Source: Hyphomicrobiales bacterium (GTDB lineage: Bacteria > Pseudomonadota > Alphaproteobacteria > Rhizobiales > Rhizobiaceae). From it: a stretch of DNA of 64,000 nt. Position 1 is the first letter of the stretch. Every line of letters starts with the position of its first letter. The notes under the pieces are model-generated. The model was not told the DNA's origin, searched no databases, and was given only the letters and a program-made list of their open reading frames with translations. Location: NCBI GenBank assembly GCA_900467685.1, contig UBQX01000007.1, positions 62,001 to 126,000 on the forward strand. Reading direction: 5' to 3'. The position numbers were made by a program, and so were the translations under genes. Of this stretch, positions 10,459-24,387 are shown piece after piece.

Positions 10459-12077
<1,619 letters not shown>

Positions 12078-12081
<4 letters not shown>

Positions 12082-12947
12082 GAACGGCTCCTCCGGAGCT
12101 TCGGGTCAAACAGATCCCGAAGACCGTCGCCCATCAGGTTCAGTCCCAACACGGTGAGCACAATCGCCGCCCCGGGAAACAGGGCCATATGCGGCGCGAG
12201 ACTGATCATCGTCTGGGCATCGGCCAGCATGCGACCCCAGCTTGGGGTTGGCGGCTGAGCGCCGAGGCCGACATAGGAGAGCGCGGCATCGGCCAAGATG
12301 CCCAGCGAAAACTGGATCGTTCCCTGCACGATCAGCAGGTTCATGATGTTGGGCAGGATGTGCTCCGCAGAAATGCGGACGGCCCCCTTCCCCGCAACAC
12401 GCGCCGCAAAGATGTATTCGCGCGTCCACAGCGTCAACGCAGCGCCGCGCGCCAGCCTCGCAAAGACCGGGATGTTGAAGATGCCAATCGCGATGATGGC
12501 ATTGATCGCGCTCGGACCGAACACGGCGGTAATCAGGATCGCGATCAACAGCGCGGGGAATGCAAAAACAAGGTCGTTGGCGCGCATGATAATCTCATCG
12601 ACCAGCGATCCCTGCTTCGCGGCGGCCCAAAGCCCGAGGGGGACGCCGGCTGCTATGCCGATGCCGACTGCAACGAAAGCAACCGCAATGGAGGTGCGCG
12701 CGCCGACCATGATCATGGAGAAGATGTCCCGTCCGAAATGGTCCGTGCCGAACCAATGTAGACCGGACGGAGCCTTCAGCTTGTCGGAAACAGCAAGCGC
12801 TGTCGCGTCATAGGGCGTCCAGATGAGAGACAGAAGCGCCGCGAGAATAAAGACGGCCGTCACGGCAAAACCCAGTGCGAAACTCTTCGACTGGAACGCG
12901 GCGCCGACAAGTCCACGCTTCACCTCAGGCAGGGTACCCACACTCAT
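12078..12947 (-). CDS. Dipeptide-type ABC permease (DppC-like)
   Basis: A 289-residue inner-membrane permease with a cytoplasmic N-terminus, one early transmembrane helix, the DppC-type motif WFGTDHFGRDIFS, and five further helices. The EAA-type loop (ARVAGKGAVRISAEHILPN) contacts the ATPase. It overlaps both neighbours by 1-4 bp, which implies translational coupling. It forms a heterodimer with the DppB-like permease. Confidence 0.93.
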
Positions 12948-13894
12948 CAGGCGCGGCTCCTCAAACGGGGATCGACCAGCGCATAGGCCATGTCCACGAG
13001 GAATGTGATAATGATGACCGCGAAGACCAGCAGCATGACGACCGACTGCACGACAATGAGATCTCGCTGCGTAATCCCTTGAAAAACGAGCCTTCCGAGG
13101 CCCGGGAGATAGAAGACATTCTCGATGATGATGGCACCGGCGAGAAGGAAGGAGAACTGCAGGCCGATGATGGTCAGAACGGGGATCAGGGCATTGCGAA
13201 CCGCGTGGCGCACCAGTGTCTGCCCCCGCGTCAGCCCCTTGGCTCGCGCCGTTCTGATGTAGTCTTCGGACAGCGTATCAAGCAGCGAGGAGCGCATGAC
13301 GCGTGCCAGGATCGAGGCTTGCGGCAAGGCGAGCGCGACCGCCGGCAAGGTCAAGGCTTTCAGCGCGACAAAGAATCCGGCATTCCAGCCCGGAAATCCG
13401 CCTGCCGAGAACCACCGAAGGGTGATCGAAAAGAGGAGAACCAGCAGCATGGCGAACCAGAAATTGGGAACCGCGATGCCCAACTGCGTTACGCCCATGA
13501 TGCCGTAATCGGCTGCCGAATTCCTCTTCGCAGCAGAAATGATGCCAATTGGCAATGCAAGAACAGTGGACAGCAGAAGGGCGTAGAGAGCGAGAGGGAG
13601 AGATACCCAAAGGCGCTGCGCGATCAGTTCGCCAGTGGGAACCTTATAGGTGTAGCTCACGCCGAAATCACCATGGGCGAGGCCGACAACCCAGGTCAGG
13701 TAGCGCCAGACGAGAGGCTCATTAAGACCCATCTGCTGGCGCAATGCCTCGACTGTTTCAGGCTGGGCATTCATGCCCAGCATGTAGGAGGCTGGGTCCC
13801 CAGGAACGACCTGAAGCACCAGAAAGATCACGACGCTGGCGGCCAGAAGGCTCAGCACAAGCGAGATCAGACGTTTCAGGAGATAGGGGGCCAT
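12947..13894 (-). CDS. Dipeptide-type ABC permease (DppB-like)
   Basis: A 315-residue DppB-type permease. The N-terminus has the standard LLKRLISLVLSLLAASVVIF helix and the VPGDPASYMLG periplasmic motif, and the ABC-contact loop reads YIRTARAKGLTRGQTLVRHAVRNAL. It follows the binding-protein gene after a 54-bp gap containing a hairpin (13914-13940). Confidence 0.93.
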   Translation of the reverse strand: MAPYLLKRLISLVLSLLAASVVIFLVLQVVPGDPASYMLGMNAQPETVEALRQQMGLNEPLVWRYLTWVVGLAHGDFGVSYTYKVPTGELIAQRLWVSLPLALYALLLSTVLALPIGIISAAKRNSAADYGIMGVTQLGIAVPNFWFAMLLVLLFSITLRWFSAGGFPGWNAGFFVALKALTLPAVALALPQASILARVMRSSLLDTLSEDYIRTARAKGLTRGQTLVRHAVRNALIPVLTIIGLQFSFLLAGAIIIENVFYLPGLGRLVFQGITQRDLIVVQSVVMLLVFAVIIITFLVDMAYALVDPRLRSRA

Positions 13895-13913
13895 GGCTTC
13901 AAGCGATCGGGAA

Positions 13914-13940
13914 GGCCGAAAGCGGCAAGCGCTTCCGGCC
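13914..13940 (-). terminator. Intra-operon hairpin after the binding-protein gene
   Basis: Two 5-bp helices separated by one mismatch (GGCCG and AAGCG pairing with CGCTT and CGGCC) around a GCAAG loop. It sits 9 bp past the binding-protein stop and before the permease start. There is no U-tract, so it more likely protects the upstream mRNA than terminates fully. Confidence 0.45.
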
Positions 13941-13948
13941 CACGCGGA

Positions 13949-15436
13949 TCAATCCTTCCAGTAGACTTCGGACATGTCGTTCGACGGGGTCGGCTGGTTT
14001 TTCCAGAGCCCGACGATCTTCGCGTTGGCAACACCCAGCTTCGGCAGTTCGAAGAGGAAAGCGTTGACATAGTCATCCGCGATACGCTTCTGCGCTGCCT
14101 TGAGCAGCTCGCTGCGCTTTGCCGGATCGGTCGTGCCGGACAGGTCCGTCATTATCTTCTTGAAGGCGTCGCTCTTGTAGTTGAAGTAATAGTTGTCGCG
14201 GCCGTAGATATCGATGTCCATCGGTTCGGTATGCGACACGATGGTAAGGTCGTAATCCTTGCCCTTGAACACCTGCTCCAGCCACTGCGCCCATTCGACA
14301 TTGGTGATTTCTGCCTTGATGCCGACCTTGGCCAGCTGGGCCGCGATGATTTCACCGCCTCGACGCGCGTAAGGCGGCGGGGGCAGCTTGAGCGACACCG
14401 TGAACCCATCCGGATAGCCGGCTTCCTTGAGCAAGGCCTTGGACTTTTCGGGGTCATAGTTCGACTGCGCGGTCAGATCGACATAGTCCGGGTTATGCGG
14501 CGCGAAATGCGTGCCGATCGGCGTGCCGTAACCGAACATGGCGCCGTCGATGATCTCCTTGCGGTTGATGGCATGTGCCACCGCCTCGCGGACCTTGATG
14601 TTGTCGAACGGCTTCTTTCCGTTGTTCATGGCCAGAAGGGTTTCACCTTCAGTATTGCCGGAAATCACCTCGAAGCGCGGGTCCGCCTTGAACTGCTCCA
14701 GCGTCTCCGCCGCGGGGAAAAGCGGGAAGGCATCGACGTCCCCCGCCATCATCGCCGCGAATGCGGCCGACGGATCGGAAATGAACTTGAACGTCACCTT
14801 GTCGAGCTTGGGTGCAGCTCCCCAATAGCCTTCAAACTTTGCCAGTTCGACGCGGTCGCCCTTGACCCAGTTCACGAACTTGAACGGGCCTGTGCCAACA
14901 GGGTTTGTCGCTTCGGTCGCAATGCTCTTCGGCGAAAGAATGACGGCATCGCCCCAGGCCATGTTGAAAAGGAAGCTGCCATTTGGCTTTTTCAGCGTCA
15001 CTTTTACCGTGGCGGGATCGACAACGTCCACCGATGCGATATCGGCGAACAGCCCCTTCTGGGCATTGGTCGAGTCCGGTGCGCGGGCGCGATCCAGCGA
15101 GAATTTCACATCGTCGGCGCTGAACGGCGAGCCATCGTGGAACTTGACGCCGGTGGCCAGGTGGAATGTGTAGGTCAGGCCATCGGCCGAAATATCCCAG
15201 CTCTTGGCAAGATCGGGTACGATGGCGCCGTTCGCGTCGAAACGCGTCAACCCTTGGAAAATATTGGCGTAGGTGACTTCGCGGATCGCCGCGGCGGCAC
15301 CCGAGGTCGGATCGAGGTTCGGCGGCTCCAGAACCATGCCGACCGTGATGGCGGTGTTGGCCGCAAAGGCGGGCGTCAGCGCGCTTGTGGCAACCAGAAT
15401 GGCCGCCGTGGTCATCAGTTTCATCAGGCTGTTCAT
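13949..15436 (-). CDS. Family 5 extracellular solute-binding protein (peptide/nickel type)
   Basis: About 495 residues. The ATG at 15436, with AAGGAAG just upstream, begins a clear Sec signal peptide (MNSLMKLMTT, hydrophobic core, cleavage after AFA). The mature protein has DppA/OppA-type features: PPNLDPTSGAAAAIREVTYANIFQGL near the start, LAKSWDISADGLTYTFHL, and KFHDGSPFSADDVKFSLDRA. The reading extends 30 codons further upstream without a plausible ribosome site. It is the substrate-recognition component of the transporter at 10459-13894. Downstream of the M20 deacylase, it likely binds an N-acyl amino acid or short peptide-like amide. Confidence 0.92.
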   Translation of the reverse strand: MNSLMKLMTTAAILVATSALTPAFAANTAITVGMVLEPPNLDPTSGAAAAIREVTYANIFQGLTRFDANGAIVPDLAKSWDISADGLTYTFHLATGVKFHDGSPFSADDVKFSLDRARAPDSTNAQKGLFADIASVDVVDPATVKVTLKKPNGSFLFNMAWGDAVILSPKSIATEATNPVGTGPFKFVNWVKGDRVELAKFEGYWGAAPKLDKVTFKFISDPSAAFAAMMAGDVDAFPLFPAAETLEQFKADPRFEVISGNTEGETLLAMNNGKKPFDNIKVREAVAHAINRKEIIDGAMFGYGTPIGTHFAPHNPDYVDLTAQSNYDPEKSKALLKEAGYPDGFTVSLKLPPPPYARRGGEIIAAQLAKVGIKAEITNVEWAQWLEQVFKGKDYDLTIVSHTEPMDIDIYGRDNYYFNYKSDAFKKIMTDLSGTTDPAKRSELLKAAQKRIADDYVNAFLFELPKLGVANAKIVGLWKNQPTPSNDMSEVYWKD

Positions 15437-15532
15437 TGTCTTCCTTCCCCTCGATAAGCGTTTATCGTGCCGCGTATCCGCCGACCCATTACCCCTAACC
15501 GGCAAATCGTCATTCCTCAAGGCCATTGGGCC

Positions 15533-16873
15533 TCAAGCTGGTTCAGCCGGCATGAGCAGTTGCAGCAAGGACAAGGCCATGACCTTGGCGCTATCAACCA
15601 TGTCGTCAATGCCAACATATTCATCCGGCTGGTGGGCGAGATCGAGAATGCCGGGGCCGTAGGCGATGCAGTTGTACATCTTGCCGATGCGGGCAATGTG
15701 CTTCTGGTCGTAAGTGCCCGGAGAGGCAACATATTCCGGCTCGCGGTCAAAGACCGCCTGGATGGCACTCGCCACAGTTCTCACCACCGGCGCGTCACGC
15801 TCGGTCATCGTCGGCGTGACACCCCAGAGTTCCTTCAGCTCGTAGTCGAAGCTCGGCCGCTGCGCTTTCACCCGCTCCAGCAATGCGACAATTTCGCCCT
15901 TCACCCCTTCCGGGCTTTCCTCGATCAGATAGCGCCGGTCGAGCACCATGCGCGCGCTGTCGGGAACAAGCGGCGACGGGAAGCCGGAGAATCCGTCCTT
16001 CGGTTCATCAAGCCCGCCATGGAAGGAATTGATATTCAGCGTCGAGCGCCGCGCCGGCGGCGGGACGACCGGCATATCGGTCTGACGCGCGGCAAGCGCC
16101 GGAAACAGGCTCTTCTCCATTTCCGCGACGACTGCACCCATATGGCGCACCGCGCAATCGCCGAGGAATGGCATGGAGCCGTGTGCGATGTGGCCAAAGG
16201 CCTCAATCTCACCCCACCAGACGCCGCGATGGCCCAGACAGATGCGGTCCTTGTTCAGCGGTTCAGGGATGATGACATGCTGGACGCGTGAGGGCGAGAA
16301 ATAACCCTTTTCGGCGAGATAGGCGACACCGCCGAAGCCGCCGGTCTCCTCATCAGCTGTCCCGGAAATCTCCACCGCGCCGGCAAAGTCCGGGAAAAGC
16401 GCCACGAAGGCTTCTGCCGCAACGATGGACGCGGCCAAGCCACCCTTCATGTCGCAGGCGCCCCGGCCATAGACCTTGCCGTCCTTGACTTCACCGCCAA
16501 AGGGGTCGAGCGTCCACCCCCTGCCCGGCTCCACGACATCGGTATGCGAGTTGAAGTGGACGCACTCGCCAGAGTAACGGCCCTCGCGCCGCGCAATCAC
16601 GTTCCATCGCGGATAGCGGTCGCTGTCGCCTGGGGCGTCAATGGCGCGGATCATCTCAATGGCAAAGCCCTGCGGCTCCAGGCGGCGTTTCAAATATTCG
16701 CAGATTTCAAGATAGGCTTCGCCCGGCGGGTTCAGCGTCGGAATGCGAATGAGTTCCGAGGTCAGCGTGACAAGATCGTCGCGCCGCGCTTCAATTTCCC
16801 GCAACAGCTTCGCCGAAGCTGTATCGCCTGGAAATTTCCTTGATTTACCAATAGTTTCGCTATCTATTTGCAT
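15533..16873 (-). CDS. M20-family metallohydrolase (ArgE/DapE-like deacylase)
   Basis: 446 residues of the M20 di-zinc family. Ligands are recognisable: His110 and Asp112 (NSHTDVV), Asp141 (GRGACDMKGG), the Glu175/Glu176 pair with the catalytic base (TADEETGG), Glu204 and a C-terminal His in TYDQKHIARIG. Start at the ATG at 16873, where an alpha-helical N-terminus begins; a much longer in-frame extension to 17530 runs antisense through the LuxR gene and is discarded. It is first in the minus-strand operon and 70 bp from the divergent PAS-LuxR gene. Probable role: removing an acyl or carbamoyl group from the imported compound in the cytoplasm. Confidence 0.9.
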   Translation of the reverse strand: MQIDSETIGKSRKFPGDTASAKLLREIEARRDDLVTLTSELIRIPTLNPPGEAYLEICEYLKRRLEPQGFAIEMIRAIDAPGDSDRYPRWNVIARREGRYSGECVHFNSHTDVVEPGRGWTLDPFGGEVKDGKVYGRGACDMKGGLAASIVAAEAFVALFPDFAGAVEISGTADEETGGFGGVAYLAEKGYFSPSRVQHVIIPEPLNKDRICLGHRGVWWGEIEAFGHIAHGSMPFLGDCAVRHMGAVVAEMEKSLFPALAARQTDMPVVPPPARRSTLNINSFHGGLDEPKDGFSGFPSPLVPDSARMVLDRRYLIEESPEGVKGEIVALLERVKAQRPSFDYELKELWGVTPTMTERDAPVVRTVASAIQAVFDREPEYVASPGTYDQKHIARIGKMYNCIAYGPGILDLAHQPDEYVGIDDMVDSAKVMALSLLQLLMPAEPA

Positions 16874-16942
16874 AATTCCAGCTTCACGAAAGAACGGAGC
16901 TGACACAATTCTGTAAAAATACGGGTCTGTAGAACTACGGGA

Positions 16943-17521
16943 ATGAGCATGAACATGGCGGGGGCCTTGAACGACACCGACGATCTCGAAAAGCTGGCGT
17001 TTGAATTCGCGCCAATCGGGATCGTGCTGACAGAAGACCGGGTGATCCGGCAATGCAATCGGCAATTCGCCAGCATGTTCGGCTATCAGCGCGACGAGCT
17101 GACCGGGCATTCCTTCCGCATGCTCTATGCGTCGAACCGCGAATTCGAGGCCATTCGGGACGTCGGCTTCAAGGCGCTGAAAGAAGCCGGCCGCTATATG
17201 GACGAGCGGCTGATGCCACGCCGCGATGGCTCGATCTTCTGGTGCCGCGTCCGCGTCTTCACCTTCGATGCGGAGGCGCCGCTGGCGCGGACGATTCTCA
17301 CCTTTGCCGATATCTCCGACACCAGACCGGCAATCTCCATGACCAACCGGGAGCGCCAGGTGGTCAAATGTCTCGCAAAGGGGATGACGAGCAAAGAGAC
17401 CGCGCGCGAACTCGATCTGTCGCCGCGCACGGTTGAAGATTACCGCGCGCGGCTGATCAAGAAGTTTGAAGTCAGGAACTTTTCCGGCCTGATGGCGAGA
17501 CTGGCTGGATTTTCGATCTAG
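16943..17521 (+). CDS. PAS-LuxR transcriptional regulator
   Basis: 192 residues in two domains. Residues about 15-125 form a PAS sensor (FAPIGIVLTEDRVIRQCNRQF, FGYQRDELTGHSFRMLY, RRDGSIFWCRV, DISD). Residues about 130-190 form a LuxR helix-turn-helix (LTNRE-type TNRERQVVKCLAKGMTSKETARELDLSPRTVEDYRARLIKKF). There is no receiver domain, so activity probably responds directly to a ligand or cofactor in the PAS pocket. It is divergent from the M20/dipeptide-transporter operon with a 70-bp intergenic region, which makes that operon its likely target. Confidence 0.9.
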   Translation: MSMNMAGALNDTDDLEKLAFEFAPIGIVLTEDRVIRQCNRQFASMFGYQRDELTGHSFRMLYASNREFEAIRDVGFKALKEAGRYMDERLMPRRDGSIFWCRVRVFTFDAEAPLARTILTFADISDTRPAISMTNRERQVVKCLAKGMTSKETARELDLSPRTVEDYRARLIKKFEVRNFSGLMARLAGFSI

Positions 17522-17539
17522 ATCAAACACTTAATTAGT

Positions 17540-17574: not shown

Positions 17575-18288
17575 TCAGAGATTGAGTGCTTCCTTCAGTG
17601 TCAGGCTCTCCCCGGTGCGCAGATCGAGATCGGCCTCGATGTGACCGATGTGATGCAGCATCATCTCGGTGGCCCGATCGACGTCGCCAGTCTGCAATGC
17701 CTCCAGGATCAGCGCATGGTCATCGTGACCACAGCTTGAGACACCGGAGCGACCATAGAGCGCGATGACAAGCGACGAACGCGCGACGAGTTCGTCCATG
17801 AACTTCTCAAGAATGGCGTTGCCCGCCACACGCGCCAGCATGATGTGGAAGTCGCCGGACGCCTTGATTTCCGCACGGCGCGCTTCGGGCCCTCTGCTCG
17901 CCTTGTGGCGGTCCTCCTCCTCCAGATGCCGCCGGAAGGCCGCGACATCGGCCTTTGTCAGCCTGCGGGCTGCCTCGGCAACGATTCCCGTCTCGATCAG
18001 GCGGCGTGACGCGAAGACCTGTCGCGCATCTTCAGGGGACGGATTGGATACAAAAGCACCCCTGTTTCGTTCACTATATACAAGCCCTTCGAATGCCAAC
18101 ATCTGCAGGGCGTAGCGGACAACCGTGCGGCTGACGTCGAATAGAGCGCCTACCTCCGCCTCTGAAAGCTTGGTACCAGGCGCAAGTCGCCTGTCCACAA
18201 TGGCGTCGCGCAACGCATCGCGAATGGCCTGCGCCCGATCTTCCTGATTTGCATCCATGGTCAAGGCCGATTTGCTGGAGAGTTTCAT
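17575..18288 (-). CDS. GntR-family (FCD) transcriptional regulator
   Basis: 237 residues. An N-terminal winged helix (RDALRDAIVDRRLAPGTKLSEAEVGALFDVSRTVVRYALQ) is followed by an FCD ligand domain with the expected metal-binding acidic/His pattern (SGDFHIMLARVAGN, HDDHALILEAL, MMLHHIGHIE). The ATG at 18288 has AGGAGG at 7-nt spacing. It is divergent from the polyamine-type ABC operon; the 266-bp gap contains the nested palindrome array (18374-18454) and a sigma-54 promoter. Probably a repressor of that transporter, released by a small carboxylate. Confidence 0.9.
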   Translation of the reverse strand: MKLSSKSALTMDANQEDRAQAIRDALRDAIVDRRLAPGTKLSEAEVGALFDVSRTVVRYALQMLAFEGLVYSERNRGAFVSNPSPEDARQVFASRRLIETGIVAEAARRLTKADVAAFRRHLEEEDRHKASRGPEARRAEIKASGDFHIMLARVAGNAILEKFMDELVARSSLVIALYGRSGVSSCGHDDHALILEALQTGDVDRATEMMLHHIGHIEADLDLRTGESLTLKEALNL

Positions 18289-18373: not shown

Positions 18374-18454
18374 TGCACAAAATTGCGCTCATATTGCATA
18401 CATAAGCTCAAAGTTTGAGCATGGGTGAAATATGTGCAGCTCCTATTTTGTGCA
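18374..18454. promoter_or_regulatory. Nested symmetric operator array
   Basis: A 15-bp palindrome GCTCAAAGTTTGAGC (18406-18420) sits at the exact centre of a perfect 10-bp inverted repeat, TGCACAAAAT (18374-18383) and ATTTTGTGCA (18445-18454). Its midpoint is 18413 and that of the pair is 18414. The whole lies between the divergent FCD GntR gene and the ABC operon, upstream of the sigma-54 promoter. Likely regulator binding sites; the protein assignment is inference. Confidence 0.6.
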
Positions 18455-18506
18455 TCGCAAAATAAACCTCAACAAATCCAGTCTCTTATGACAGGCCCAC
18501 GGAAAC

Positions 18507-18522
18507 TGGCACGGCCCGTGCA
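18507..18522 (+). promoter_or_regulatory. Sigma-54 (-24/-12) promoter
   Basis: TGGCACGGCCCGTGCA matches the sigma-54 consensus TGGCACG-N4-TTGCW at 11 of 12 defined positions, with correct spacing between the GG and GC elements. It lies 32 bp before the ABC ATPase start codon and implies transcription start near 18534. This predicts dependence on RpoN and an enhancer-binding protein, such as NtrC under nitrogen limitation. Confidence 0.72.
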
Positions 18523-18554
18523 TTGAAATGCCCATCCACGAACGAGGATGATGC

Positions 18555-19643
18555 ATGTCCCAAGCCGCCGAAATTGAGCTCGCTTCCGTTTCCAAGATCT
18601 ATGGATCGACCCGAGCCGTGCACGCCATCAGCCTCAAGATTCCGGCGGGCAGCTATTGCTGCTTCCTGGGCCCCTCCGGCTGCGGGAAGACCTCGACCTT
18701 GCGCATGATTGCCGGTCACGAAACGGTGTCCGAAGGCGACATCCTGCTCGGAAACACGATCGTCAACGATCTGCCGCCGGCAAAGCGCGGCACGGCCATG
18801 ATGTTCCAGTCCTATGCGCTCTTTCCTCATCTCGACCTCGTCGACAACGTGGCTTTCAGCCTCAAGATGCAGGGCATCGAGAAGGCGGAGCGCCGCAACA
18901 CCGCGCTTGAAATGCTGAAGCGCATGCAGCTGGAGCCCTATGCGAGCCGCCGCCCGGCGCAGTTGTCCGGCGGCCAGCAGCAGCGCGTCGCCCTTGCCCG
19001 CGCGCTGATCACCCGCCCGCAGGCGCTGCTGCTTGACGAGCCGCTCTCAGCGCTCGATCCGTTCCTGAAGATCCGCATGCGTGCCGAACTCAAGAGCCTG
19101 CAGACCTCGCTCGGAATGACCTTCGTCCACGTAACGCACAGCCAGGATGAGGCCATGGCGCTGGCGGACCTGATTGTCGTTATGAATGACGGTCGTATTG
19201 AACAGGCAGCTACCCCCCGCACGGTCTTCGAGCGGCCCGCGACGGCCTTCGTTGCGCAGTTCATGGGCAATCACAATGTCATTTCCGGCCGCGTAGTCGA
19301 GCGCACGGGAGAGATGACGACGATCGAGGTCAACGGCGGCGGTCGCTTCACGGCCCTTGGCTCGCCCACGCATGACGATCCGCAGGCCGATTTCGCGCTG
19401 CGCACCGACCATATCCGCCTCGCCACCACCGACGAGCCGGGCTTCGGCTTCACGGCAGTCGTGCAGAACGTCGAAGATCTGGGCGCCAGCGTGAAGCTGA
19501 GCGTGGCAGGTGCCGGCGTGGAGGACTTCACCGTCGTCCTCAGCGACGCCGACTACTATCGCAACCCGGTCAAGGCGGGCGATGCGGTACCGCTGTCCTG
19601 GGCGACGAACGACGCGATCATTCTGGGCCGCGTTGCCCGGTAA
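18555..19643 (+). CDS. Polyamine-type ABC transporter ATPase (PotA-like)
   Basis: 362 residues. The nucleotide-binding domain has Walker A at 39-46 (GPSGCGKT), a Q-loop MFQSYALFPH, signature LSGGQQQRVALARAL and Walker B LLLDEPLSALD. A C-terminal TOBE-type region follows from about residue 240. First gene of the operon ATPase, binding protein, two permeases, racemase, acetyltransferase. The ATG has a GAGG element about 10 nt upstream and follows the sigma-54 promoter. It energises import of a spermidine/putrescine-class or other nitrogen compound. Confidence 0.93.
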   Translation: MSQAAEIELASVSKIYGSTRAVHAISLKIPAGSYCCFLGPSGCGKTSTLRMIAGHETVSEGDILLGNTIVNDLPPAKRGTAMMFQSYALFPHLDLVDNVAFSLKMQGIEKAERRNTALEMLKRMQLEPYASRRPAQLSGGQQQRVALARALITRPQALLLDEPLSALDPFLKIRMRAELKSLQTSLGMTFVHVTHSQDEAMALADLIVVMNDGRIEQAATPRTVFERPATAFVAQFMGNHNVISGRVVERTGEMTTIEVNGGGRFTALGSPTHDDPQADFALRTDHIRLATTDEPGFGFTAVVQNVEDLGASVKLSVAGAGVEDFTVVLSDADYYRNPVKAGDAVPLSWATNDAIILGRVAR

Positions 19644-19713: not shown

Positions 19714-20994
19714 ATGACCACGAAGTCTCAAGGTATCACGCGCCGCACGCTTCTGAAGGCAGGCGCCGCCGCCGCAGGTGCCGCCGCCGGCACCGGCGTC
19801 ATCACCGGCTTCCCGACCATCTGGGCGAAGAACCCGATCACGCTGCGCCAGATCGGCACCGGCGTCTCGAACATCAATGCCATCGCCGAAAAGTGCAAGG
19901 CGGACCTTGGCATCACGCTGGAAATGACGGCTCTCGATTCCGACGCGGCCGCCCAGCGCACGGTCACCCAGCCGAACTCCTACGACATCGCCGACGTCGA
20001 ATACTGGATTCTGAAGAAGGTCTTCCCGGCCGGTGTGATCCAGCCGATGAACACCAACAAGCTGAAATATTTCGACAAGATCGTTCCGCTCTTCATCACC
20101 GGCAAGCTGAAGCCGGATAGCGTGATTGCGCAGGGCACCGCGCCGCACACCGTCGGCTTCGTTGAAAAGCCCGGCGACAAGAAGTTCGCCAAGGCACCGA
20201 CCGAATGGTTCACGATGGTCCCGACCATCTACAATGCCGACACGCTCGGCATTCGTCCCGACCTCGTCGGCCGCGAAATCTCGTCCTGGGCCGACATTCT
20301 CGATCCGGCCTTCAAGGGCAAGACATCGATCCTCAACATCCCGTCCATCGGCATCATGGATGCGGCGATGATCATGGAAGCCACGGGCAAGATCAAATAT
20401 GCAGACAAGGGCAACATGACGAAGGCCGAAATCGACAAGACGATCGACTTCCTCATCGAAACCAAGAAGGCCGGCCAGTTCCGCGCATTCTGGAAGTCCT
20501 TCGACGAATCCGTCAACCTCATGGCCTCCGGCGAAGTCGTCATCCAGTCCATGTGGTCGCCGGCGGTCGCCGCCGTGCGCTCCAAGGGCATCGCCTGCAA
20601 GTATCAGCCGCTCAAGGAAGGCTACCGCTCGTGGGGCGGCGGTCTGGGTCTGGCCGCCCACCTCAAGGGCGCCGAACTCGATGCGGCCTATGAATATATC
20701 AACTGGTACACGTCCGGCTGGGTCGGCGGCTATCTCAACCGCCAGGGCTACTATTCGGCCTGCATGGAAACCGCCAAGCAGTTCATGTCCGAAGACGAAT
20801 GGGGCTACTGGATCGAAGGCAAGCCGGCCAAGGGCGACATCATGTCTCCGGAAGGCAAGGTCATGGAAAAGGCCGGCGCCGTGCGCGACGGCGGCTCGTT
20901 CGACGACCGCATGGGCAAGGTCGCCTGCTGGAACTCGGTCATGGACGAAGACCGCTACATGGTGAAGCGCTGGAACGAGTTCATCGCTGCCTGA
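19714..20994 (+). CDS. Polyamine-class solute-binding protein with Tat signal
   Basis: 426 residues. The ATG at 19714 has AAGGAG 8 nt upstream; a reading from 19672 is discarded. The N-terminus has a twin-arginine signal (TRRTLLKAG at about 9-17 followed by an Ala/Gly-rich hydrophobic stretch), so it is probably exported folded through Tat. The mature part resembles PotD/PotF-type type 2 periplasmic proteins (SYDIADVEYWIL, SWADILDPAFKGKTSILN, INWYTSGWVGGYLNRQGYYS). It delivers substrate to the permeases at 21067 and 21976. A ligand related to hydantoin or another nitrogen source is suggested only by the downstream racemase. Confidence 0.92.
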   Translation: MTTKSQGITRRTLLKAGAAAAGAAAGTGVITGFPTIWAKNPITLRQIGTGVSNINAIAEKCKADLGITLEMTALDSDAAAQRTVTQPNSYDIADVEYWILKKVFPAGVIQPMNTNKLKYFDKIVPLFITGKLKPDSVIAQGTAPHTVGFVEKPGDKKFAKAPTEWFTMVPTIYNADTLGIRPDLVGREISSWADILDPAFKGKTSILNIPSIGIMDAAMIMEATGKIKYADKGNMTKAEIDKTIDFLIETKKAGQFRAFWKSFDESVNLMASGEVVIQSMWSPAVAAVRSKGIACKYQPLKEGYRSWGGGLGLAAHLKGAELDAAYEYINWYTSGWVGGYLNRQGYYSACMETAKQFMSEDEWGYWIEGKPAKGDIMSPEGKVMEKAGAVRDGGSFDDRMGKVACWNSVMDEDRYMVKRWNEFIAA

Positions 20995-21066: not shown

Positions 21067-21972
21067 ATGGTGACTGTGAGGCTGATCGGCGCAGGCGACG
21101 GCAAGCCGAAACGCGAGTTTCGCCTGCCCGGCTGGCTGCCGCCCTATCTGCAGGCCACGCCGCTGGCGCTGATCCTCGGCGGATTCCTGCTCCTGCCGAT
21201 CCTGATGATCGTGACGGTCAGTTTCTGGGACTACGACTTTGCCCAGATGTATCCCGACTTCGTTTCGATGAACTATGTGGATACGCTGGGCTCCTGGGTG
21301 ACCTGGAAGACCTATCTGAACACGCTCAAGTTCGCCGCGATCGTCTGGGTGCTGACCCTGGTCATCGGATTCTGGGTCGCCTATTTTCTCGCCTTCCATG
21401 TGCGAACCGCCGCGATGCAGATGGTTCTCTTCCTCGTCTGCACCGTCCCCTTCATGACCTCGAACATCATCCGCATGATTTCGTGGATCCCCGTTCTCGG
21501 TCGAAACGGCCTCGTCAACACCGCGCTCGTCAAGGCGGGCATCGTGCCGGAACCGATCGAATGGCTTCTCTATTCCGATTTCGCCGTCGTGCTCGCTATG
21601 GTGCATCTCTACACGCTCTTCATGGTGACACCCATCTTCAACACCTTGATGCGCATCGATAGATCGCTGATCGAGGCAGCCCGTGACGGAGGCGCGTCTG
21701 CCTGGCAGACACTGACAAATGTCATCATCCCCCTCGCAAAACCCGGAATGGCAATCGGCACCATCTTCGTCGTGACGCTGGTCATGGCCGATTTCTCGAC
21801 TGTTCAGGTCATGTCCGGCGGCCAGAGTGCATCGGTGGCTCTGATGATGAAGAACCAGATGTCTCTGCTGCAATATCCGGCGGCTGCCGCCAATGCCGTG
21901 GTGCTGCTGGTCGTCGTGCTGCTGATGGTCGCGGCCATCCTGCGCGTCGTCGACATTCGCAAGGAGCTTTGA
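21067..21972 (+). CDS. Polyamine-type ABC permease (PotB-like)
   Basis: A 301-residue inner-membrane permease with about six transmembrane helices and the EAA contact loop IEAARDGGASAWQTLTNVIIPLAKPG. A short cytoplasmic N-terminus precedes the first helix. It ends 3 bp before the partner permease. It forms the membrane channel with the PotC-like subunit. Confidence 0.93.
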   Translation: MVTVRLIGAGDGKPKREFRLPGWLPPYLQATPLALILGGFLLLPILMIVTVSFWDYDFAQMYPDFVSMNYVDTLGSWVTWKTYLNTLKFAAIVWVLTLVIGFWVAYFLAFHVRTAAMQMVLFLVCTVPFMTSNIIRMISWIPVLGRNGLVNTALVKAGIVPEPIEWLLYSDFAVVLAMVHLYTLFMVTPIFNTLMRIDRSLIEAARDGGASAWQTLTNVIIPLAKPGMAIGTIFVVTLVMADFSTVQVMSGGQSASVALMMKNQMSLLQYPAAAANAVVLLVVVLLMVAAILRVVDIRKEL

Positions 21973-21975
21973 ACC

Positions 21976-22794
21976 ATGTACACCGAAAAGCGCCCCCGCG
22001 AATTCTACATCCTCGCCGCCTTCTTCATCCTTTTTGTGCTGTTTCTCTATGGCCCGATGTCGGCGATCTTCATCCTGTCGTTTCAGGGGCCGAATGGCGG
22101 CCTGACTTTCCCGATGAACGGCGCCTCGCTTCATTGGTTCGGCAACCTGTTCGAGACACAGGCGGTGGGCGATTTCGGCGGCGCGTTTCAGCGCTCGTTC
22201 GCGCTGAGCTTCATGGTGATGATCGTGACGGTCGTCGTCTCGCTTCTGGCCGGCCTGGCCTTCCGGCGGAAGTTCTATGGCGCGACGGCGCTTTTCTATC
22301 TCGCCGTAGCAAGCCTCGTCGTGCCCTCGATCATCATCAGCCTCGGGATCGGCGTGCTTTTCCAGCAGTTGGGATTCTCACCCGCCTGGTACTCATCCGG
22401 CTTCGGCGCGCATCTGACCTGGACGCTGCCCTTCGGCGTGCTGATCATGTTCGCGATCTTCAATCGCTTCTCGCCCTCTTACGAGGAGGCCGCACGGGAC
22501 CTGGGCGCCACCCCGTGGCAGACGTTCCGCTTCGTGGTCCTGCCCATGATCCTCCCAAGTCTCATCGGCGTCGGGTTGTTCGGCTTCACCCTCTCCTATG
22601 ATGAGTTTGCCCGCACGCTGATGACGGCAGGGACCTATAATACGCTGCCGCTCGAAATCTACGGCATGACGACCAATGTGACGACGCCGGTTCTCTATGC
22701 GCTCGGAACGCTGACCACGCTCTTTTCCTTCATCATTATAGCCAGCGCGCTCGGCATCATCGTGGTCATGAACCGCCGACGCGGCAAGGCATGA
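21976..22794 (+). CDS. Polyamine-type ABC permease (PotC-like)
   Basis: A 272-residue permease with six predicted membrane helices and the EAA loop YEEAARDLGATPWQTFRFVVLPMILPS. The sequence LSYDEFARTLMTAG after the loop is typical of PotC-like subunits. It is followed after 10 bp by the racemase gene. Confidence 0.93.
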   Translation: MYTEKRPREFYILAAFFILFVLFLYGPMSAIFILSFQGPNGGLTFPMNGASLHWFGNLFETQAVGDFGGAFQRSFALSFMVMIVTVVVSLLAGLAFRRKFYGATALFYLAVASLVVPSIIISLGIGVLFQQLGFSPAWYSSGFGAHLTWTLPFGVLIMFAIFNRFSPSYEEAARDLGATPWQTFRFVVLPMILPSLIGVGLFGFTLSYDEFARTLMTAGTYNTLPLEIYGMTTNVTTPVLYALGTLTTLFSFIIIASALGIIVVMNRRRGKA

Positions 22795-22804
22795 CAGGCA
22801 AGCC

Positions 22805-23551
22805 ATGAAACTCCTCGTCGTCAACCCGAACACAACGGCTTCCATGACGGAGAAGATCGCGGATGCGGCCAACCGCGTTCGCAACGCGTCCACCGACATC
22901 CTCGCGGTCACCTCCAGCATGGGCCCCGCCTCGATCGAAGGCTATTATGACGAGGCTCTGGCACTTCCCGGCCTGATGCTGGAAGTCGCGAGAGGCGAAA
23001 AGGCCGGCGCCAGCGCTGCGATCATCGCCTGTTTCGACGATACAGGTCTCGACGCCGCCCGCGCGCTCGCCCACATTCCGGTTCTGGGTATCTGCGAAGC
23101 TGCCCTTTCAGCGACTGCCTTTATTGCGCAGCGCTTCACCATCGTGACGACCATGGAACGCTCCCGCCTGCCGCTGGAGGGGTTGGTTCACCGCTACGGT
23201 ATGGCCGGCCGTTGCAACGTCCGCGCCGCCGACATTCCTGTTCTTTCACTCGAGGACCCGCAATCGAACGCCCGCGACCGCTTGCGCAACGAGATCGCCG
23301 CTGCCCTTCGCGAAGACAAGTCGGAAGCCATCGTCCTCGGCTGCGCCGGCATGGCGGACCTCACAATGGATCTGCGCCACGAGTTTGGCATACCGGTTAT
23401 CGATGGTGTTGCCGCAGCCGTGAAGCAGGCTGAAGGCTTGGTCACTCTCGGCCTCAGCACCGCCAAGCGCGGCGCTTACGCCACCCCCGTGCACAAGCCC
23501 TATGCGGGCGCCCTCGCCGCTTTTGCGCCGCAGGATCTTCTTGCCGGATGA
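22805..23551 (+). CDS. hyuE: Hydantoin racemase-like Asp/Glu racemase
   Basis: 248 residues of the Asp/Glu/hydantoin racemase superfamily. The two acid/base cysteines are Cys76 (IIACFDDTGLDAAR) and Cys180 (LGCAGM), matching the two-cysteine arrangement described for the Sinorhizobium meliloti hydantoin racemase, and the start KLLVVNPNTTASMT is typical. It interconverts D- and L-5-substituted hydantoins, or possibly allantoin, without cofactor. It overlaps the next gene by 4 bp. No hydantoinase or carbamoylase is in the window, so the hydrolytic steps would have to be encoded elsewhere. Confidence 0.85.
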   Translation: MKLLVVNPNTTASMTEKIADAANRVRNASTDILAVTSSMGPASIEGYYDEALALPGLMLEVARGEKAGASAAIIACFDDTGLDAARALAHIPVLGICEAALSATAFIAQRFTIVTTMERSRLPLEGLVHRYGMAGRCNVRAADIPVLSLEDPQSNARDRLRNEIAAALREDKSEAIVLGCAGMADLTMDLRHEFGIPVIDGVAAAVKQAEGLVTLGLSTAKRGAYATPVHKPYAGALAAFAPQDLLAG

Positions 23552-24387
23552 GCCCGCACACTGAAATCAGAAATCTGACGCTGCAGGAAACTGCAAAACT
23601 GGTCGAATGGGCCGGACATGAAGGCTGGAACCCATCACCCGATGACGCCCCGGCTTTCTTTGCGGCTGATCGCCAAGGGTTCATCGGCTGTTTCATCAAT
23701 GGCGAGCTCGCCTCCGGCATATCGGCCGTCGCCTATGGCGAAACGTTCGGCTTTATCGGTCTTTATATCACGCGCCCGGATTTCCGCGGCAAAGGCTATG
23801 GCCTCAAGGTCTGGAACGCGGCCATTTCCCGTCTCATGGGCAGGACCATCGGCCTCGATGGCGTCCCGGCACAACAGGCAAACTACGAGACGATGGGTTT
23901 TCGACGTAGCTACGGCAGCACACGCTGGAGCGGCAGCGTCCAGGATGTCTCGACAGTTGGCAACGCTACTGCGGCAATCTCGCAGGATTATGACGAAATA
24001 TTGTCATTTGACAGAGCTTGCTTTCCGGAAGAACGCGTATCTTTCCTCAGGGTCTGGCTCGCGGCACCCAGGAAGGCATTCGTCGCGCGCCAGGATGGTC
24101 GCATCGTGGGCTATGCCGTCGTCAGGAAATGCCGGGCCGGATACAAGGTCGGCCCCATTTTCGCGCATAACGACCTGATCGCTCGCGACCTGCTGAAGGC
24201 CTGCGGCAGAACCGCCGGAGCAGCAACCCTCCATCTGGATGTACCGGACTCGCAACTGGAATTTGGAAAACACCTCAAGACGCTGGGCTTTCAGCCTGGC
24301 TTCGAAACTGCGCGGATGTATCTGGGGAAGCCGCCCGAGATTGGCATCTCGAGTGTCTTCGCCGTCACCACACTCGAACTCGGCTGA
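23548..24387 (+). CDS. GNAT-family N-acetyltransferase, two-part
   Basis: 279 residues. The N-terminal half is a GNAT domain with the acetyl-CoA loop TRPDFRGKGYGLKVWNAA (about 75-92). The C-terminal half (from about 145) resembles the second domain of YitH/HolE-type acetyltransferases (FLRVWLAAPRKAFVARQDGRIVGYAVVRKC, YKVGPIFAHNDLIA). It overlaps the racemase gene by 4 bp and closes the operon. It may acetylate an amine derived from the imported substrate; substrate unknown. Its stop codon directly abuts that of the convergent hydroxyacid dehydrogenase gene. Confidence 0.85.
   Translation: MSPHTEIRNLTLQETAKLVEWAGHEGWNPSPDDAPAFFAADRQGFIGCFINGELASGISAVAYGETFGFIGLYITRPDFRGKGYGLKVWNAAISRLMGRTIGLDGVPAQQANYETMGFRRSYGSTRWSGSVQDVSTVGNATAAISQDYDEILSFDRACFPEERVSFLRVWLAAPRKAFVARQDGRIVGYAVVRKCRAGYKVGPIFAHNDLIARDLLKACGRTAGAATLHLDVPDSQLEFGKHLKTLGFQPGFETARMYLGKPPEIGISSVFAVTTLELG

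Follow-up and report, generated by a model that had tools for sequence, protein, structure and literature searches.

A predicted sigma-54 promoter with an NtrC-type activator site is conserved ahead of an ABC importer and racemase operon in Rhizobiales

Introduction

Does a short sequence resembling a sigma-54 promoter really control the genes behind it, and does it bring them into the response to nitrogen limitation? This question was raised by a 64-kb stretch of DNA from a bacterium of the Hyphomicrobiales (the window), in which the sequence TGGCACGGCCCGTGCA stands ahead of genes for an ABC importer and a racemase. A second question follows from the first, namely which compound the importer may take up. 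The following features are concerned:

18507..18522, plus strand: predicted sigma-54 (RpoN) -24/-12 promoter TGGCACGGCCCGTGCA (consensus match; conserved in 104/106 orthologous loci)
17575..18288, minus strand: divergent gntR, FCD-domain regulator of the GntR family (Pfam FCD 72.8 bits, GntR 61.4 bits)
18555..19643, plus strand: ABC importer ATP-binding subunit, first gene (Pfam ABC_tran, TOBE_2)
19714..20994, plus strand: solute-binding protein (Pfam SBP_bac_8) with a twin-arginine signal (RRTLLK) in the translation
21067..21972, plus strand: ABC importer permease 1 (Pfam BPD_transp_1)
21976..22794, plus strand: ABC importer permease 2 (Pfam BPD_transp_1)
22805..23551, plus strand: enzyme of the Asp/Glu/hydantoin racemase family (PF01177, 192 bits, cut-off 31)
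23548..24387, plus strand: two-domain GNAT acetyltransferase, last gene (Pfam)

Results

The operon and its neighbourhood

The ATPase gene has a Shine-Dalgarno sequence GAGG at 18544-18547; the start of gntR was taken at ATG 18288, which is preceded by GGAGG. Close named matches belong to species of Rhizobium, Neorhizobium, Agrobacterium and Mesorhizobium. Among 80 loci found with the racemase, homologs matching over at least half of the query length were present for gntR in 68, for each permease in 78, for the binding protein in 77 and for the GNAT protein in 60, and an orthologous ATPase (at least 45%, start in reach) was present in 77. The flanking dipeptide importer, M20 peptidase and dehydrogenase were not conserved together with the operon and therefore lie outside the unit.

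The dipeptide-type importer and the M20 peptidase adjoin the operon region on the minus strand (10459-17530). In its long version, the M20 frame overlaps a PAS-LuxR gene (16943-17521, plus strand), and M20 translation probably begins further in. In the Rhodobacterales loci L210, L211 and L212, the GNAT gene adjoins gntR instead of the operon end; thus, its link to the system survives rearrangement.

Conservation of the promoter element

TGGCACGGCCCGTGCA, read as TGGCACG-GCCC-GTGCA, agrees with the consensus TGGCACG-N4-TTGCW at 11 of 12 positions, the single mismatch being G for the first T of TTGC, and its GG and GC are separated by 10 bases, which is the canonical spacing. The element is intergenic and correctly placed, with ATG 18555 following 32 nt past its end. 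The initial annotation had given the site at 18507-18522 with 11 of 12 positions and 32 bp to the start codon, and all three values proved exact on re-check. Transcription is expected to start at the predicted position 18533/18534.

Strings of this kind were counted in the window and in the genome. With up to two mismatches, TGGCACG-N4-TTGCW matched 12 times in the 64-kb window as compared to 12.4 expected in shuffles, and the relaxed NTGCW form matched 50 times as compared to 45.9; neither is an excess. The 5.05-Mb genome contained 12 exact matches to the relaxed pattern, most of them inside long open frames, and 13 to the pattern read backwards, again no excess. TGGCACGGCCCGTGCA is the only exact relaxed match within the window. 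As the counts equal those of the controls, the string match by itself was rejected as evidence for a promoter; hence, the comparison of orthologues, and not the string, decides whether the promoter is real.

Orthologous loci comprised 77 from the racemase search in named genomes and 29 from a second set consisting of the best 30 matches. Left out were L054 (contig end), L100 and L108 (racemase in other context), none of which has an orthologous ATPase, and L041 (contig start) from the best-30 set. Five pairs among the 106 loci are identical over 200 bp, leaving 101 distinct ones. A site was accepted when GG and GC were present, the score was 10-12 and the distance to the ATPase start was within 80 bases. 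An element scoring at least 10 of 12 was found ahead of the first gene in 104 of the 106 Rhizobiales operons (score 12 in 2, 11 in 81 and 10 in 21), at 41-58 nt from the start of that gene; L033 and L035 had no element within 80 bases of the ATPase start. Controls taken from the same 106 loci, the reverse strand and two other windows, reached a maximum of 9 of 12, in 2 cases.

Eight bases were invariant in 104/104, T, G, G, C and A on the -24 side and T, G and C on the -12 side, and the four spacer bases varied freely. The first T of TTGC was replaced by A in 69 promoters, by C in 21 and by G in 6, and kept in 8. The mismatch in the window is therefore a family trait. The frequent A at this position is a conserved departure from the sigma-54 consensus; the glnK promoters of the relatives mostly have TTGA.

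Furthermore, the comparison was extended to the class, where the binding protein was detected at E < 1e-120 in 33 of 385 genomes. Outside the order's main set, 21 of 33 loci could be judged, 11 being without an ATPase match and L248 without a readable upstream region; L236 and L213 are the same record stretch. Fourteen of the 21 scored at least 10 and one scored 9. Four class-level genomes with a GAFTGA-bearing NtrC lack the promoter (L227, L230, L238, L245). On named plasmids, the element was present in both Azospirillum loci (score 10) and in all three of beta-Proteobacteria (10, 10, 11). The best score in three Rhodobacterales (L210-L212) was at most 7, despite conservation of the operon, gntR and a GntR-like box. 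A nucleotide search of the plasmid collection with the promoter region gave no match.

An NtrC-type site upstream of the promoter

Three further sites were assigned between gntR and the promoter:

18393..18404, plus strand: GntR-type operator box ATTGCATACATA, family form ATTGyATACAAT (motif search, per-locus positions)
18405..18421, centre 18413, plus strand: NtrC-type upstream activator site AGCTCAAAGTTTGAGCA, a 17-bp dyad (glnK-trained motif)
18475..18487, plus strand: weak IHF-like site AATCCAGTCTCTT, located between the dyad and the promoter (6/9 consensus positions)

A first alignment and motif search of the operon upstream regions yielded two elements, ATTGyATACAAT and the 17-bp dyad. 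A palindromic NtrC matrix was learned from glnK promoters alone, using 33 upstream regions (32 usable) limited to 140 bp. A conserved sequence 160-190 bp upstream of glnK, probably the last part of the adjacent coding sequence, was set aside as a motif. The resulting consensus, TGCctAaa.ttTagGCA, is of the NtrC type TGC-N11-GCA. Binding of S. meliloti NtrC to TGC-N11-GCA with an A/T-rich centre is reported in PMC10746234.

With the glnK matrix, 93 of the 104 operon loci scored higher than the 95th percentile of dinucleotide shuffles, and 69 scored higher than the 99th. No NtrC-type site above the 95th-percentile threshold was found in the remaining 11 (L024, L028, L039, L059, L068, L069, L077, L085, L089, L101, L113). 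The mean dyad score of 72 non-redundant loci was 12.2, which none of 500 column-permuted matrices reached (average 0.4, maximum 6.6); the loci are related, so that neither these shuffle figures nor the Rayleigh figures given below are true probabilities. In about 7 of the 72, the best NtrC match overlaps the GntR box and could be a cross-match.

The search for an NtrC site further upstream that the initial annotation had suggested thus led to AGCTCAAAGTTTGAGCA at 18405-18421, with position and helical phase conserved across Rhizobiales. Its centre lies 95 bp upstream of GG, at about -120 from the predicted start. The site scored 11.3 with the glnK-only motif, the 99th percentile of shuffles being 11.4, and differs from TGC-N11-GCA in its first base, A instead of T.

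Helical phasing of the upstream sites

Dyad centres cluster at about -73, -84, -95 and -105 from GG, that is in steps of about 11 bp. Such distance steps are expected of an activator that faces the polymerase through a short loop. Redundancy was reduced at three cut-offs, which left 62, 53 and 46 dyad-bearing loci and gave Rayleigh values of 0.72, 0.70 and 0.66; not one of 5000 jittered sets (shifts of up to 10 bp) attained the observed value at any of the three. The positions -95 and -105 are common to glnK dyads and operon dyads. The GntR box is also phased with the promoter; most loci have it at a distance of 13-15 or 36-38 bp from the dyad. AATCCAGTCTCTT is located 33 bp upstream of GG; within the family, 17 of 72 loci have an IHF-like site at 8 or 9 of 9 positions as compared to 1.9 expected in shuffles.

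The GntR box

Of the 72 non-redundant loci, 68 have the box with at least 8 of its 10 defined positions matched, and in the window ATTGCATACATA directly adjoins the NtrC-type dyad. Seven Agrobacterium-type loci (L066, L068, L072, L074, L077, L083, L084) gave no gntR match in 14.7 kb, yet the ATTGCATACAAT box and the dyad region are retained in all of them.

The GntR protein may sense the substrate, hinder NtrC and regulate its own gene, as the arrangement of sites suggests. The box kept without gntR in the seven loci and the partial match of the NtrC matrix to the box in some loci complicate the reading that GntR hinders NtrC.

Sigma-54 and NtrC in the genome

A single rpoN is present (one PF04552 match, 232 bits) together with eight strong PF00158 matches for enhancer-binding proteins. 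Among the regulators are NtrB and NtrC, the latter with the GAFTGA motif (L123 1063-2541). The glnK promoter of the same genome has an NtrC-type site, TGCCTATTTTTTATGCG, at -104. A glnII-like gene (L009), named from a reading of its protein start, is preceded by the same kind of exact-match promoter string and provides a useful positive control.

Two other exact sigma-54 strings were observed. One (L007, G000:C17:196826-196841) has an NtrC-type dyad (11.4) at -104, but in the 300 bases downstream no open frame of 100 codons begins with ATG or GTG; it may serve a small RNA or a short gene of the nitrogen regulon. The other (L003, G000:C17:45723-45738) has an NtrC-type site (13.7) at -129, and the product of the gene downstream begins with a twin-arginine-like signal.

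NtrC of Rhodobacterales is reported to be without the GAFTGA loop that contacts sigma-54 (PMC10274813). We found the promoter in 15 of 19 genomes with a GAFTGA-bearing NtrC (one with a score of only 9) and in neither of two genomes without it, NtrC assignment being uncertain in one of these two (Fisher p 0.07, not phylogeny-corrected). When three Rhodobacterales plasmids, on which NtrC was not seen, were added to the second group, it became 0 of 5 (p 0.003, likewise not phylogeny-corrected). In this small sample, the co-occurrence is suggestive and would agree with NtrC dependence.

Discussion

Control of the operon

The promoter and its conservation, the NtrC-type site found by an independently trained motif, the phasing, rpoN and the GAFTGA-bearing NtrC are all present in the data. 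On sequence grounds, TGGCACGGCCCGTGCA is to be regarded as a genuine, widely conserved switch of the sigma-54 and NtrC nitrogen-starvation type. The link to nitrogen limitation that the initial annotation had drawn from an 11 of 12 match, which such a match could not show, is now supported by conservation in 104/106 loci and by the dyad. We are confident that the operon has a sigma-54 promoter activated by NtrC, with the divergent GntR protein probably acting as a second, substrate-linked control.

We infer the following course of events. Upon nitrogen limitation, phosphorylated NtrC would bind the dyad at 18405-18421 and reach, through a loop that IHF may help to form, the sigma-54 RNA polymerase held at 18507-18522. 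Remodelling driven by ATP would then start transcription near 18533/18534, and the transcript would span five or six genes, for the ATPase, the binding protein, two permeases, the racemase and usually the GNAT protein. The GntR/FCD protein would bind ATTGCATACATA beside the NtrC site, probably gating this site according to substrate, and would also regulate its own gene. The operon would import a chiral nitrogen compound and interconvert its enantiomers, with allantoin or another cyclic ureide or hydantoin as the best guess.

The weak points of the NtrC model are the 11/104 loci with no dyad above the shuffle threshold, the moderate score of 11.3 in the window, the possible cross-matches to the GntR box, and the 2/106 loci and four class-level genomes with no promoter. 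We also count against it that NtrC action independent of RpoN has been reported for one Agrobacterium (PMC3293034).

The sigma-54 promoter could be real and yet respond to another of the enhancer-binding proteins, of which the genome has eight strong candidates; the dyad would then belong to that protein or to GntR, whose box it adjoins and, in some loci, overlaps. We consider this unlikely, because glnK, whose promoters served to train the motif, is a classical target of NtrC and lacks this gntR, and because in all three Rhodobacterales operons gntR and a GntR-like box are retained but the promoter and any dyad above 8.9 are missing. A mere chance resemblance, with the operon transcribed from a sigma-70 promoter under GntR alone, would fit the chance frequency of such strings and the Rhodobacterales, whose orthologous operon lacks the element and is presumably expressed all the same, but is highly improbable given an element at the same place in 104 of 106 loci with a freely varying spacer. 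A sigma-70 promoter may exist in addition to the NtrC-activated one.

Activation by NtrC with GntR as second control may go further. The spacings of 13-15 and 36-38 bp between box and dyad, the phasing of both with the promoter and their abutting in this genus led us to a tentative and rather doubtful reading, namely an AND gate at the resolution of the DNA helix, in which the substrate-sensing GntR acts as an anti-activator that blocks NtrC assembly until substrate is present. If true, nitrogen starvation and substrate would both be required, and the natural one-turn indels across Rhizobiales would provide a ready series on loop geometry.

The substrate

The substrate may be a cyclic ureide or hydantoin and is probably not a polyamine. 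We give slightly less than an even chance to allantoin, or a related cyclic ureide or hydantoin, as the substrate, the racemase then making both enantiomers usable. The closest PDB structures of the racemase are 3qvj (208 bits), named a putative hydantoin racemase, which we take to be K. pneumoniae HpxA, and the allantoin racemase 5lfd (156 bits); the two cysteines that were mutated in PDB 3qvk are conserved here as Cys76 and Cys180. Furthermore, a Polaromonas plasmid joins importer and racemase with a dihydropyrimidinase, a ureidoglycolate lyase and a cyanuric acid amidohydrolase, and a closely related racemase in L108 (74%) stands behind an open frame whose translation reads as amidohydrolase-like. 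Against this stands that the genes beside the operon in the window include no recognisable hydantoinase, allantoinase or carbamoylase and that PF01177 also includes racemases of other compounds. The polysaccharide-deacetylase neighbours scored 86 and 108 bits as compared to 425 for the allantoinase PuuE, and were rejected as PuuE-type enzymes.

The Polaromonas cluster (L216 1-10351), in which the cyanuric acid amidohydrolase was confirmed at 545 bits, hints at the substrate class.

The initial annotation had called the importer polyamine-type, which holds for the transporter family: ATPase and permeases are closest to the PotA, PotB and PotC models. It does not hold for the binding protein, which matches PotD and PotF weakly and reached 24.8 bits against PotD, far below the cut-off of 582. 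In this weak alignment (24 bits), Trp229 and Trp255 of PotD are kept, and Asp257 and Glu171 face Gly and Met; the numbering and the polyamine-contact roles of these four residues are those we assume for PotD. Two of the three acidic residues that contact polyamines thus seem to be missing from the binding protein. Polyamines are achiral, moreover, and a racemase would be senseless for them. A spermidine/putrescine importer switched on by nitrogen limitation is, on this evidence, improbable.

Significance

The findings would assign to the nitrogen-starvation regulon an importer and a racemase that are widespread among soil- and plant-associated bacteria but uncharacterised, and the substrate is then to be sought among nitrogen sources. 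In addition, about 100 natural variants of one NtrC/sigma-54 promoter have become available, in which the activator distance changes by whole helical turns beside a substrate-sensing regulator. The surprise is small, since the control logic is textbook and sigma-54 control of the gene classes had been predicted previously.

Comparison with known systems

That prediction (PMC12316311) lists exactly the gene classes of this operon as enriched for sigma-54 promoters; the passage concerned gives gene classes and not the operon as a unit, and it names no activator site or GntR box. Among the open-licence papers searched for hydantoin or allantoin racemases together with sigma-54, NtrC or rhizobia, no experimental study of the operon was found.

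In S. meliloti, a tolC mutant is reported to show strong downregulation of the ABC operon SMa0391-SMa0396 along with glnK and nrt genes (PMC2912261). This operon likewise encodes a PotA-type importer behaving with the nitrogen regulon. It differs in that its ATPase is 42% and its permeases are 29-31% identical, with binding protein and racemase unmatched in a 15-kb stretch. As the fetched stretch is not orthologous, the tolC data were rejected as direct support.

The enzyme resembles the allantoin racemase 5lfd and the putative hydantoin racemase 3qvj in its PF01177 domain and in both active-site cysteines; unlike allantoin racemases, it has no allantoinase partner in the window operon. The closest likeness in control is to the NtrC/sigma-54 promoters of glnK-amtB and glnII in Rhizobiaceae, which share the -24/-12 element, the TGC-N11-GCA dyad about 95-105 bp upstream of GG and the same phases. 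The operon differs from both in the GntR box beside the activator site, and from glnK in its -12 box, mostly ATGCA (A in 69/104, T in 8/104) as compared to mostly TTGA. Switches of this type are well known, and the import operon most likely adds one more member to the set under NtrC/sigma-54 control.
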